DNA from: Anaerolineales bacterium | GTDB lineage: Bacteria > Chloroflexota > Anaerolineae > Anaerolineales > DRMV01 | Length of the DNA stretch: 35,020 bases | NCBI GenBank assembly: GCA_027053355.1 | Contig: JALUDX010000130.1 | Coordinates: 1 to 35,020, forward strand | Direction: 5' to 3' | The notes under the pieces: generated by a model | Told to the model about the DNA's origin: nothing | What the model saw: only the letters and a program-made list of their open reading frames with translations | Database searches by the model: none | In this document: in pieces, positions 20,450-25,623 of the stretch | Position numbering within the stretch: position 1 is the first letter of the stretch | Layout of the letters: the number at the start of each line of letters is the position of its first letter | Made by a program: the position numbers and the translations under genes

Positions 20450-22786
20450 ATGACCACTTTACCCTTTCGCCCTCCCGCGCGCTTCACGTTGGCCACCGAC
20501 GCCCGCTTGCAGGCCGAAACGGCCGGTGAAGATTACGCCTGGCGCCTGCACGCGGCCTTCGGCCTCTGGGAGGCCATGGCCTTGGTCTCCACCTTAGGCT
20601 TGCGGGTGCAGGAAGTGGTCACCTTCCCCTTTGTGGAAGTGGAGGGGCAGCGGCGATGGGCGCCGGAAACTTTCGCCAACGGCCCGCACCTCCTCGCCCT
20701 GACCCCAGCATGGGCGCGGTTGCAATGCGAACCCTTTTTGGGGCTGGTGCTGCAGTGCGAATACTGGGCTGCCCATCCGCAGGGGATGGTCGGCCGGTTG
20801 CACCTGTACAACGAAGGCCACGTGCCCCGCGTGGGTGCCATCGGGGTGGCCGGTGTGCTGCGCCCCTTGCCCGGCGAAGAGGGCGGGCTGGAACCACGAG
20901 AAACCCACGCGGTACACGTCTTACAAGGCGAAGGCGGCGGGCTCAGCCCGGTGCTCTTCCTCACTGGCGGGGCCGAGGGGAGGAGGTCGCCCTTCCCCGC
21001 GCTCACGGTGTCCTTTTCACTGTTGCCGGGGCAAGAGCGTCACCTGACGTGGGTGCAAACCGCGCGGCAAGACCCCGAAGCCGGCTTCGAACTGGCGCGC
21101 CAACTGGCGGCCCGCCCCTGGCCGCCGGTCGAAGCCCGCCTGGCCGTGCTCGAAGCCCAGGTTTTGCACGTCGAAGCCGAAGCACCCGCCCGCTCGTGGG
21201 CCTTTTTGCGCGGGCGCCAGATGGCGTTGCGCCTCCTGCGCCCCCACCCCGACCTGCCGCACCCCTTCTTCGTCACGGCTCGCGGCCCCGACCACGGCGG
21301 CCCTTACGACCCCCAGGCCAGCCACCGCGCGCCTTCGGTGCTCGATGCTTACCACCTGGCCAGCGCGGTCTTCCTCCCCCTCTGGCCCGAGCCGGTGCGC
21401 GGCTGGGTGGCCAACTTCCTCGCCCGCCAGCAAGACAACGGCTTCATCCCCTGGAAGCCCACCCTCCCCACAGCAGGCAACCTGGCTTCTCCTTTGTTGG
21501 TTACCCTGGCTTACCGCGCCTGGCAACACGACCCCACCGGCCTGGCTGGGCTGTACGAGCCCATGCGCCACTTTTTAGAAGCCTGGCAGACCCAAGCCGA
21601 CGCCAACCGCGACGGCCTGCCGGAATGGACGCACCCGCTTCAAATGGGGTTGGCCGACCCGCCCGGCTTCGCCCCCTGGCGCCGCGAATCCCCCGGCGCT
21701 TCCCTCAGCCATGCCGAAAGCCCTGCTTTGTATGCCTTCCTCTTTGCTGCCCTCAACCACTTAGAGGCCATGGCCCAGGCCGGAGAGCGCCCCTTCCCCA
21801 AATCTTTGCAGACCTTCCGCCGCCGCCTGCGCCGCGCCCTCAACGAAATGTGGGATGACGCCCGCCGCGCCCCCCTCTATCGGGATCGGGACACCCACCA
21901 GCGCCCCCCGCACCAGGTGTTGCACAAAGCCCATGGCCGGCAGACCGTCGCCCTTTCCCTCACTTTTGCTTCGCCGCAACGGCTGTTGCTGCATTTCTTC
22001 CCCCAACGGGGCAGCGTCCGCTCGGTGGAGGTGGTGCTGCGCGGCCGCGACGAGCGGGGCAAGCCCTTGGAAGAAATCCTGCCGGCCAGCCGCGTGCAAT
22101 GGTACGAGGGGCGAGGCGTGCTGACCAGCGAGGGGGTGTTCGCCCATCTGGAGGAGGTGCGGGTCGATGGGCTGCGCAGCCGCGACCGCTGGGTGCTGCT
22201 CACCCCCGATTACACCCTCAGCGACATCAGCCTGCTCACTGCGCTGTGGGCTGAAGCCCTGACGCCCGAACAGGCCGAGCAGGTGCGGCGGGCTTTGCGC
22301 GGCGTGCGCGGCTACGGACGCCCCTTTGGCGCACCCCTCAGCCCCCGCGGCGGCAAGAAAGCGCCCCCGTGGCAGCGCGCGGTGCACCTGCCCTGGAACG
22401 CGTTGGCCGTTGAGGGCCTGCTGGCCTACGGCTTCCGGGAAGACGCAGCCCGCCTGCTCACGGCCAGCACCCAGGCCGTAGAACACGCCTTGAGCCACCA
22501 GGGCGCGTTCTTCGAAGCCTACCACGCGGACACCGGCCAGGGGTTAGAACGGGCGGAAATGTTGGCCGGTCTGCCAGCGCCCGCGCTGTGGATGAAGACC
22601 GCGGGGGTGCATCCCCTCACGCCCCGCCGCTTGCGCCTTACCTGGCCCAGCCCCTTTGCCGAGACCTTGCGCTTTGCCTTCTGGGGCTGGAAGGTCATCC
22701 GCGGCCCCAAACGCACCGTGGTCATCACCCCCGACGGCCGCAGCCGCACACTGCCTACGGCCGAACCGTGGGAAATCGCTTTCTGA
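20450..22786 (+). CDS. Six-hairpin glycosidase-like protein (GH63/amylo-alpha-1,6-glucosidase-like)
   Basis: The 778-residue protein lacks a signal peptide or membrane segment. The N-terminal 260 residues look beta-rich. The middle (about 290-500) has the repeating helix pairs of an (alpha/alpha)6 barrel: SVLDAYHLASAVF, NFLARQQDNGFIPWKP, LVTLAYRAWQ and DANRDGLPEWTHPLQ, the last resembling the DxNxDGLPEW signature of GH63, trehalase-like and glucoamylase-like enzymes. A helical and then beta C-terminal part follows. Such enzymes hydrolyse alpha-glucosidic bonds of storage or compatible-solute glycans in the cytoplasm. The catalytic acids are not clear to me, so it could be a divergent or inactive member. 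prmC follows after 25 bases and is probably co-transcribed. Confidence 0.55.
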   Translation: MTTLPFRPPARFTLATDARLQAETAGEDYAWRLHAAFGLWEAMALVSTLGLRVQEVVTFPFVEVEGQRRWAPETFANGPHLLALTPAWARLQCEPFLGLVLQCEYWAAHPQGMVGRLHLYNEGHVPRVGAIGVAGVLRPLPGEEGGLEPRETHAVHVLQGEGGGLSPVLFLTGGAEGRRSPFPALTVSFSLLPGQERHLTWVQTARQDPEAGFELARQLAARPWPPVEARLAVLEAQVLHVEAEAPARSWAFLRGRQMALRLLRPHPDLPHPFFVTARGPDHGGPYDPQASHRAPSVLDAYHLASAVFLPLWPEPVRGWVANFLARQQDNGFIPWKPTLPTAGNLASPLLVTLAYRAWQHDPTGLAGLYEPMRHFLEAWQTQADANRDGLPEWTHPLQMGLADPPGFAPWRRESPGASLSHAESPALYAFLFAALNHLEAMAQAGERPFPKSLQTFRRRLRRALNEMWDDARRAPLYRDRDTHQRPPHQVLHKAHGRQTVALSLTFASPQRLLLHFFPQRGSVRSVEVVLRGRDERGKPLEEILPASRVQWYEGRGVLTSEGVFAHLEEVRVDGLRSRDRWVLLTPDYTLSDISLLTALWAEALTPEQAEQVRRALRGVRGYGRPFGAPLSPRGGKKAPPWQRAVHLPWNALAVEGLLAYGFREDAARLLTASTQAVEHALSHQGAFFEAYHADTGQGLERAEMLAGLPAPALWMKTAGVHPLTPRRLRLTWPSPFAETLRFAFWGWKVIRGPKRTVVITPDGRSRTLPTAEPWEIAF

Positions 22787-23733: not shown

Positions 23734-25623
23734 TCAAAATTCCAGATAATCGTCCAAATCGAAGAGAAACACGGTGGCGCCCCCTACTTTGACCGGGCGG
23801 GGCTGAGGCAAGGGGAAAAGCCCGCCCACGGTTTTCGTCACGAATTCCACCCGATGGCGACAAGTTTTGCGCAGCGCGGCGACCACTTCCTCGACCTGGC
23901 CCTCGGGCACGCCAATGAGCAAAGTGACGTTGGGGCGTTTGAGGAAGCCGCCGCTGCTGAGCACGGGCACCACCGGCACGCCCAGCCGGGCCAACGCCTC
24001 GGCCACGGCTTCGGGATGGCGCTCTTGAATCACGGCCATCATCAAATGCCGAATGGGCGGCGCGTCGGGTACGCGGCGCAGCAACATCCCCGGCCAGGCG
24101 GGGAGGGGCTCGTTGAGCGCGCGGTCGATTTCGGTGGTGAGTTCGGAGAGAATGTGCTCGCTGATCACCCCGGCCTGAAAGAGGTCGTGCAACGCAGCCC
24201 GCTGGGCGCGCAAGGTTTCCAGGCGCGCTTTGCGGAATTCTTCCATCTGCAGTTCAGGCCGTTGGGCTAAAATCTCGTGCACCGCCTGTTGCAAGCGCTG
24301 GTTGCGCTGTTCCAGCAGGGGTTGGAGCATTTCCCAGGTGTGGGCGGAGATCACGCCTTGCCGGAACGCGCGGCGCAGATATTCGAAGCCCGCGCGCGCG
24401 GCCACCGCGCGGGCATGGCGTTTCTCGAATTCCATCTTTGCCGCGTCGGGCGCACCGATACCCAACCTGCGCAGCACCCACGGCATGGAGCCCCCTTCCA
24501 CCAACAGGGTGAACAACACCACGCCAAAAGCCATGATCTGAATTTGCTCCCGAGCACCGCCCAGGCTTTCGGGCAGGCCCAGCGCCAGCGCCAGCGAAAC
24601 TGCGCCGCGTAACCCACCCCAATAAAGCACATGACGCCAGGCCCAGGGCACCCCTTTCCCCACCCACGCCAGGCTGTAAACGCTAATCGCCCGGGCCGCC
24701 AAAATGGCCAGCACCGCCCATAGCACGGTGTATCCGTTGTTCAGCAGCACGTGGGGCCGAATTTGTAAGCCGATGAGGAGAAAGATGAACGAGTTGGCCA
24801 GGAAGGCCGCGAATTCCCAGAAATTGACGGCCACGATGCGCGAGGTGGGCGACATGCTGCGCGGCCCCAGGTTGCCCGCCAACAAACCCGCGGCCACCAC
24901 GGCCAATACGCCGCTGACGTGCAATTGCTCGGCCACCAAAAACGCGCCGTAGGCCAAAACGGTGGTCAGCGCGGTTTCCAACAGATAATCATCCACCCGC
25001 GCGATAACGCTGGCCACCAACGCGCCCAAAAGCACGCCCACCAAAAAGCCCCCACCGGCCACGCGCAAAAAGTCCATCACGCCCTGGCTCACGCTGTACT
25101 GGCCGGTCAGTGCCACGCCCAACAACAGGTTGAAAATCACAATAGCGGTGCCATCGTTGAACAGGCTTTCACCTTCCAAAAGCACCTGCAGCCGCTTGGG
25201 CGCGCCCAAGGAGCGGAAAAGGGCGACCACCGCCACCGGGTCGGTCGCGGCTACCAACGCGCCAAACAACAACGCCACGGTAATGGGCATCCCCAGGCCA
25301 TAATGCACCACCGCGGCGGTGACCACGGTAGCCACCAACACCCCCACCACCGCCAGGCTCATGATCAGCCCCAAATCGCGCTTGAGGTCATCCCAGCGCA
25401 GGTGAAAGGCGGCTTCGAAGATAAGCGGCGGCACCAACACCCCCAAAATCAATTCGCCGGTAATGTGAACCGTGACCTCGGCGAAGATGGCCAACGCCAG
25501 CCCCACCAACACCAAACCCAAGGTGTAGGGCATCCGCAGCCGTCGGCTGAGCAGCCCGACCACCACGGCCACGGTGAGCAGGGAAATGACGATTTCTTCG
25601 AGAAAAAGCAGCGAATGGGGCAT
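23734..25623 (-). CDS. CPA1 Na+/H+ antiporter fused to a PII-like c-di-AMP receptor domain
   Basis: The 629-residue protein has about 12 membrane segments in residues 5-390 typical of the NhaP/NHE (CPA1) family: LVPPLIFEAAFHL, ATDPVAVVALF (Asp128), GESLFNDGTAIVIF (Asn156-Asp157) and GGLRGAVSLALAL. A charged helical linker (about 395-515) follows. Residues 524-629 match the CdAMP_rec/DarA (PstA) fold: AVIQ, then LSSGGFLKRPNVTLLIGV, and after an insertion VKVGGATVFLFDLDDYLEF. The antiporter exchanges cytoplasmic Na+ or K+ for H+; the attached domain would let c-di-AMP control it directly. Stand-alone PstA/DarA proteins bind c-di-AMP at the trimer interface. The fusion is read straight from one open frame; its regulation is inference. 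The gap upstream (25624-25818) contains only TTGG-rich filler repeats. Confidence 0.88.
   Translation of the reverse strand: MPHSLLFLEEIVISLLTVAVVVGLLSRRLRMPYTLGLVLVGLALAIFAEVTVHITGELILGVLVPPLIFEAAFHLRWDDLKRDLGLIMSLAVVGVLVATVVTAAVVHYGLGMPITVALLFGALVAATDPVAVVALFRSLGAPKRLQVLLEGESLFNDGTAIVIFNLLLGVALTGQYSVSQGVMDFLRVAGGGFLVGVLLGALVASVIARVDDYLLETALTTVLAYGAFLVAEQLHVSGVLAVVAAGLLAGNLGPRSMSPTSRIVAVNFWEFAAFLANSFIFLLIGLQIRPHVLLNNGYTVLWAVLAILAARAISVYSLAWVGKGVPWAWRHVLYWGGLRGAVSLALALGLPESLGGAREQIQIMAFGVVLFTLLVEGGSMPWVLRRLGIGAPDAAKMEFEKRHARAVAARAGFEYLRRAFRQGVISAHTWEMLQPLLEQRNQRLQQAVHEILAQRPELQMEEFRKARLETLRAQRAALHDLFQAGVISEHILSELTTEIDRALNEPLPAWPGMLLRRVPDAPPIRHLMMAVIQERHPEAVAEALARLGVPVVPVLSSGGFLKRPNVTLLIGVPEGQVEEVVAALRKTCRHRVEFVTKTVGGLFPLPQPRPVKVGGATVFLFDLDDYLEF

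Follow-up and report, generated by a model that had tools for sequence, protein, structure and literature searches.

A cation/proton antiporter of Anaerolineales carries a PstA/DarA-like domain and may share a c-di-AMP site with a second PII-like protein

As late as December 2025, the targets of the c-di-AMP receptor PstA/DarA were described as unknown (PMC12802241). In the genome of an Anaerolineales bacterium, a window of 35,020 nucleotides (the whole stretch of DNA analysed here) contains a gene that was predicted from its sequence to encode a Na+/H+ antiporter fused to such a receptor; the fusion was taken to suggest direct control of transport and to give a functional clue for the free receptor. 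The locus raises the question of whether the transporter carries a complete c-di-AMP receptor, and how much it reveals about the free one.

The frame runs from ATG to stop over 629 codons with zero internal stops (Table 1). With Pfam cut-offs of 26.2 bits for PF00999 and 27 bits for PF06153, the antiporter part matched the Na_H_Exchanger family at 239.4 bits (E 7.6e-71) and residues 527-628 matched CdAMP_rec at 62.6 bits (E 4.6e-17). By profile the fusion is a clear member of both families. A CPA1 transporter and a PF06153 domain in one reading frame, the latter 106 residues long, were thus found as the original prediction had them, and the motifs were located where they had been read: TDPVAV around D128, ESLFND at residues 152-157, GGFL at 558-561, N565-V-T-L-L-I-G571, and VGGATVF up to F619. 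D128, N156-D157 of ESLFND and R339 of GGLRGA are invariant across 44 aligned fusions. The two matches were the sole Pfam domains of the protein, and neither RCK_C (TrkA_C) nor a cyclic-nucleotide-binding domain was found in it by Pfam. An RCK_C, CNBD or USP tail on the antiporter was considered and rejected on zero Pfam matches.

The AlphaFold2 model (44 fusions; mean pLDDT 82) predicted a helical membrane part, four cytoplasmic helices and a PII-like order of strands and helices at 524-622. The linker helices were placed at 394-421, 427-454, 456-483 and 489-504, with pLDDT mostly 76-94 in this block, and the phmmer alignment to SOS1 reaches residue 505. The enlarged B'-loop of the fused domain was modelled at 596-606 with low confidence. 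When the tail alone was compared with solved structures, S. aureus PstA was the best match (E 5e-14), followed by Listeria PstA, a Pediococcus homologue and B. subtilis DarA/YaaQ; the transporter part was nearest to plant SOS1, sperm NHE and other NHE/NhaP structures. SLC9C1 (the sperm NHE) and SOS1 also headed the whole-chain fold ranking by Foldseek. Like the fusion, these proteins combine an exchanger of the CPA1 type with a regulatory tail in the cytoplasm, and structures of SLC9C1 have been solved with cAMP/cGMP. Both carry a cyclic-nucleotide-binding-type domain, whereas in the fusion a PII-like domain occupies that place.

Table 1. Coordinates of the fusion gene, its parts and a neighbouring gene in the window
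Feature	Position	Strand	Description or basis
Antiporter-PII fusion gene	23734..25623	minus	CPA1 cation/proton antiporter, helical linker and PstA/DarA-like (PF06153) C-terminal domain; 629 aa
Transmembrane antiporter domain, residues 17-385	24469..25575	minus	PF00999
Cytoplasmic helical linker, residues 394-504	24112..24444	minus	AlphaFold2 model; phmmer alignment to SOS1
"Long" PII-like c-di-AMP-receptor domain with B'-loop, residues 524-629	23737..24054	minus	PF06153, PstA match, predicted fold
T'-loop GGFL, residues 558-561; half B with N565 and F619	23941..23952	minus	Alignment to SaPstA
Val552 at the PstA Thr28 position; half A lost	23968..23970	minus	Alignment to SaPstA
Glu628 at the PstA Gln108 position (phosphate contact, half A)	23740..23742	minus	Alignment to SaPstA
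MGH1-like glycoside hydrolase gene	20450..22786	plus	PF22422, E 4.8e-12

The distribution of the fusion was determined in 121 genomes of Anaerolineales, the order of the source organism. It was present in 37 of them, including all four sampled from the source genus, and it recurs far above chance, in many independent contigs and with tail identity down to about 35%. An assembly artefact or a chance frame is ruled out by 50 distinct fusion sequences with conserved boundaries. The named relatives that carry it are Anaerolineales/Anaerolineae (Chloroflexota) MAGs. PF06153 was matched twice in the source genome (2.45 Mb, 215 contigs), by the fusion and by a stand-alone protein of 88 aa encoded on contig C185 (10479-10745). 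In most relatives, a homologue of the MGH1-like hydrolase is found immediately upstream of the fusion, or of a pair of free PII-like genes described below; in the window the hydrolase reads toward the fusion and is parted from it by a PrmC-like gene. No match to this hydrolase was found among solved structures. A link with compatible solutes might exist.

In PstA, c-di-AMP sits between two subunits (PMC4316997, PMC4475381). One subunit contributes R26, T28, G47 and residue 108, referred to here as half A, and the other contributes the GGFL loop with F36 and L37, N41 and F99, referred to as half B (PMC4316997, PMC4475381). T28 belongs to the TKL...GGFL motif. Measurable binding is abolished in SaPstA T28A, which is unsaturated even at 300 uM (PMC4316997), and N41A weakens binding to 9.6 uM in the S. 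aureus and about 140 uM in the L. monocytogenes protein (PMC4316997, PMC4475381). R26 is dispensable, being Gly in LmPstA (PMC4475381). The fused domain retains GGFL, N565 (N41), G571 (G47), F619 (F99), R67 and the B'-loop, and has Pro550 at R26, Val552 at T28 and Glu628 at Q108 (PstA numbering). The claim of a fused c-di-AMP receptor therefore holds for the family and not for a complete site: T28 and residue 108 are both lost, a complete PstA-type receptor is not claimed, and the isolated fused domain may well fail to bind c-di-AMP.

The two halves were scored across the family. Half A was taken as intact with T/S28, G47 and Q/K/R/N/H108, and half B with an aromatic residue at 36, L/M/I/F37, N41 and an aromatic residue at 99. 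These definitions were set after the PstA papers and the substitutions in the window, so that the counts describe a pattern and are no blind test of it. Half A was intact in 46 of 53 canonical, 5 of 46 free long, 0 of 50 fused and 84 of 88 short proteins; the corresponding counts for half B were 51/53, 43/46, 42/50 and 21/88. About half of the fused domains retain T28. Residue 108 is Glu in 74% of them and Q/K/R/H in 53 of 53 canonical proteins. In three fused proteins of the window's family (L044, L047 and L049) N41 and G47 are lost too.

The short protein of the source genome has R26, T28, G47 and Q108, with N41 replaced by Ser and L37 by Phe. A second PII-like protein, unlinked in the source genome and adjacent in relatives, thus carries exactly the half that the fused domain lacks. 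Sequences from dozens of related genomes suggest that the fused domain contributes a single half of the c-di-AMP site, the other being supplied by a distinct short protein. The short PF06153-like proteins of fusion genomes are 86-98 aa long and lack the B'-loop; the best fold match of the short protein is LmPstA with c-di-AMP.

Linkage of the two genes is consistent with such a partnership. In most fusion genomes the short gene lies directly 3' of the fusion, typically a few bases away or overlapping it. A clear short gene was present in 33 of the 37 fusion genomes and directly downstream in about 21 by hand count; three have no clear short gene and one has divergent copies only. In the source genus the short gene is unlinked. 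That of the source genome adjoins an AMMECR1-like gene (an identity read from sequence), the neighbourhood in which several relatives have a free long/short pair; this position suggests a transfer of the long gene to the antiporter, with the short gene left in place. Long genes also occur unfused, and all 20 of those fetched have a short gene directly after them. Among 46 distinct free longs, 9 follow unfused PF00999 antiporters, namely 2 behind a CPA1 antiporter without a tail (e.g. L064) and 7 behind a CPA2-like one (e.g. L070, L073 and L081), and 27 lie behind the MGH1-like hydrolase.

Complementarity was then scored in 77 linked long/short pairs (43 free, 34 fused). A mixed site, with half A from the short and half B from the long protein, was intact in 68 of the 77 (41/43 free, 27/34 fused); the reverse combination was found in 0/77. 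A site formed by the long protein alone was intact in 5/77 pairs and in 0/34 fused ones, and a site formed by the short protein alone in 2/43 free and 15/34 fused pairs. In these 15 pairs the short protein could bind by itself, which counts against a mixed site. The seven fused pairs without an intact mixed site and the four fusion genomes without a clear short gene were also counted against a mixed sensor. On the gene trees, T28 changed state at least 16 times among the long, twice among the short and never among the canonical proteins, and N41 at least 10 times among the short and 7 times among the long; residue 108 shows a single early change in the long lineage. The repeated changes at T28 and N41 indicate that the half-site losses were not one inherited event at every site.

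These counts bear on the alternative closest to the original prediction, that the fused domain binds c-di-AMP alone in a homomeric PstA-like site and that the short protein is an unrelated paralogue. GGFL, N41, G47, F99, R67 and the B'-loop are indeed in place, R26 is not needed in LmPstA (PMC4475381), and T28 persists in part of the family. Nevertheless, no fused domain has an intact half A, the window's protein has Val at T28 together with Pro at R26 and Glu at Q108, and the T28 substitution in SaPstA left no measurable binding (PMC4316997). The short gene is also linked in most relatives, and an antiporter dimer alone does not give three PII domains. We regard a homomeric site as unlikely.

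A search for a diadenylate cyclase, proposed with the original prediction, identified a 292-aa CdaA-type protein (PF02457, E 2.7e-41) followed by a CdaR/YbbR-like gene. A cyclase was present in 116 of the 121 genomes; being near-universal in the order, it discriminates little, and its co-occurrence with the fusion is uninformative. No ydaO riboswitch was found in the source genome and no Rfam element in the window. It could be argued that the long and short proteins form a mixed regulator of the antiporter that responds to another ligand, such as ATP/ADP or another nucleotide. The site has drifted from that of PstA, the ydaO riboswitch was not detected, and one short protein scores just over the classical P-II cut-off (28.9 vs 25 bits). 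The residues preserved on each side are, however, exactly the c-di-AMP contacts of PstA, the short protein lacks a B-loop insert at the place expected for the P-II ATP motif, and a cyclase is present; a different ligand is accordingly held to be improbable. That the fused domain senses nothing and is a structural or oligomerisation tail, c-di-AMP (if any) being bound by short homotrimers acting elsewhere, would agree with the loss of half A, with the missing N41 and G47 of L044, L047 and L049 and with the short proteins that have both halves, but is very doubtful, since half B is intact in 42/50 fused domains over wide divergence, which would not be required of a mere structural tail, and the short gene is linked to and co-occurs with the fusion.

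The reading preferred here is a mixed PII-like trimer, perhaps of two fused domains and one short subunit, through which c-di-AMP would gate the antiporter; on the sequence evidence we consider it reasonably probable. We lean slightly towards its more specific form, in which complementary degeneration has left each of two PII-like proteins with a part of the c-di-AMP site. As one of the two is covalently joined to the antiporter, binding would then need the mixed complex to assemble on the transporter, possibly as a trimer of two fused domains and one short subunit with a single site. CPA1 antiporters are dimeric and PII-like proteins trimeric; two fused domains and one short subunit would fit both and would leave one complete site. 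We infer a physical complex in which a CPA1-type Na+ (or K+)/H+ antiporter would contribute, as its tail, one of the two kinds of subunit in a PII-like c-di-AMP sensor of two components. Half B (GGFL loop, N41 and F99) would come from the fused long domain, along with the B'-loop, and half A (R26, T28, G47 and Q108) from the 88-aa short protein, and the mixed trimer would close round c-di-AMP solely at the short-to-long interface. Movement of the B'-loop would be relayed via the helical linker to the transporter, and rising c-di-AMP would lift autoinhibition and activate cation efflux. A rise in c-di-AMP is a high-K+ signal in Bacillus. In KhtTU, c-di-AMP activates K+/H+ antiport through RCK_C (PMC10117811), and B. 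subtilis lacking c-di-AMP benefits from mutations in the antiporter NhaK (PMC7857571). By analogy with these two cases, activation of efflux at high c-di-AMP seems the likelier direction, with modest confidence.

PstA (S. aureus, L. monocytogenes) and DarA (B. subtilis) remain the closest solved proteins in sequence and fold, sharing PF06153, the GGFL T'-loop, N41, G47, F99, R67, GGA and the B'-loop. They are free homotrimers with identical complete sites, whereas the domain described here is transporter-borne, has lost half A and has a second PII-like protein alongside. In GlnK-AmtB and SbtB-SbtA, a homomeric regulator with a different ligand acts on a trimeric transporter to which it is not fused. 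The present system differs in that one of its two subunit types is joined to the transporter, and in that two proteins are predicted to share the site. Common to these systems, and proposed for the present one, is the control of a transporter by a PII or PII-like protein, often from adjacent genes (PMC3831643; SbtB-SbtA as cited in PMC10710835). KhtTU, CpeAB and CpaA are cation/proton antiporters for which c-di-AMP control is known or predicted (PMC10117811; CpaA, PMC7288161), but they sense it via RCK_C, whereas the fusion has a PII-like domain and no RCK_C was found in it. That a regulatory domain can be fused to a transporter is established in general (PMC10710835).

PII control of neighbouring transporters and c-di-AMP control of antiporters via RCK_C are thus already known. 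The open literature searched, with subscription journals largely outside it, gave no account of an antiporter fused to a PstA-type domain or of a PstA-type oligomer of mixed composition. The PstA/DarA family is widespread, and its members are here joined to, or encoded with, cation/proton antiporters across a Chloroflexota order, which gives a testable target. If correct, the mixed complex would be another c-di-AMP route to transport besides RCK_C and CBS domains, and a site split in the predicted way would be unusual among the signal-sensing architectures of the PII superfamily.

The clue for the free receptor was followed in canonical DarA of the same class. At 30 loci, the neighbour was tmk in 29 and an antiporter in none. 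The long/short subfamily is distinct from the canonical tmk-linked DarA; the fusion is informative for this subfamily, and its bearing on free DarA/PstA is indirect. Eight tandem proteins from other Anaerolineae families (211-261 aa, L156-L163) contain a long-like and then a short-like domain in one chain, and one of them lies near a CPA2-like antiporter. Each of the two tested by Pfam gave two PF06153 stretches. The tandem proteins support a physical association of the two types but not the split site, since both of their domains mostly retain both half-sites; the split site seems to be peculiar to the Anaerolineales subfamily. Tandem PF06153 proteins were not described in the literature searched. 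Long frames in other families that resembled further antiporter fusions turned out to be tandem PII proteins, chance upstream frames or a tmk read-in frame.

Several other arrangements were observed. Locus L130 has two fusion/short units in tandem, L116 has a fusion/short unit followed by a free long/short pair, and in L094 a fusion/short unit is followed by a CPA2-like antiporter and a free long/short pair. A 119-aa protein without a Pfam match (L070:2984-3343, minus strand) lies between the CPA2-like antiporter and the long/short pair, and its end (GILLVLPI) resembles PII-like C-termini by eye. At L164:1776-2783 (minus strand), thymidylate kinase and canonical DarA occupy one 335-aa frame, either a true fusion or a sequencing effect. 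A Tissierellales MAG has two adjacent canonical-type PF06153 genes (L146:4495-5164). In Finegoldia magna (L147:4462-5102) a short protein comes after a canonical-type PF06153 protein; the pairing of PII-like proteins thus extends beyond Chloroflexota.
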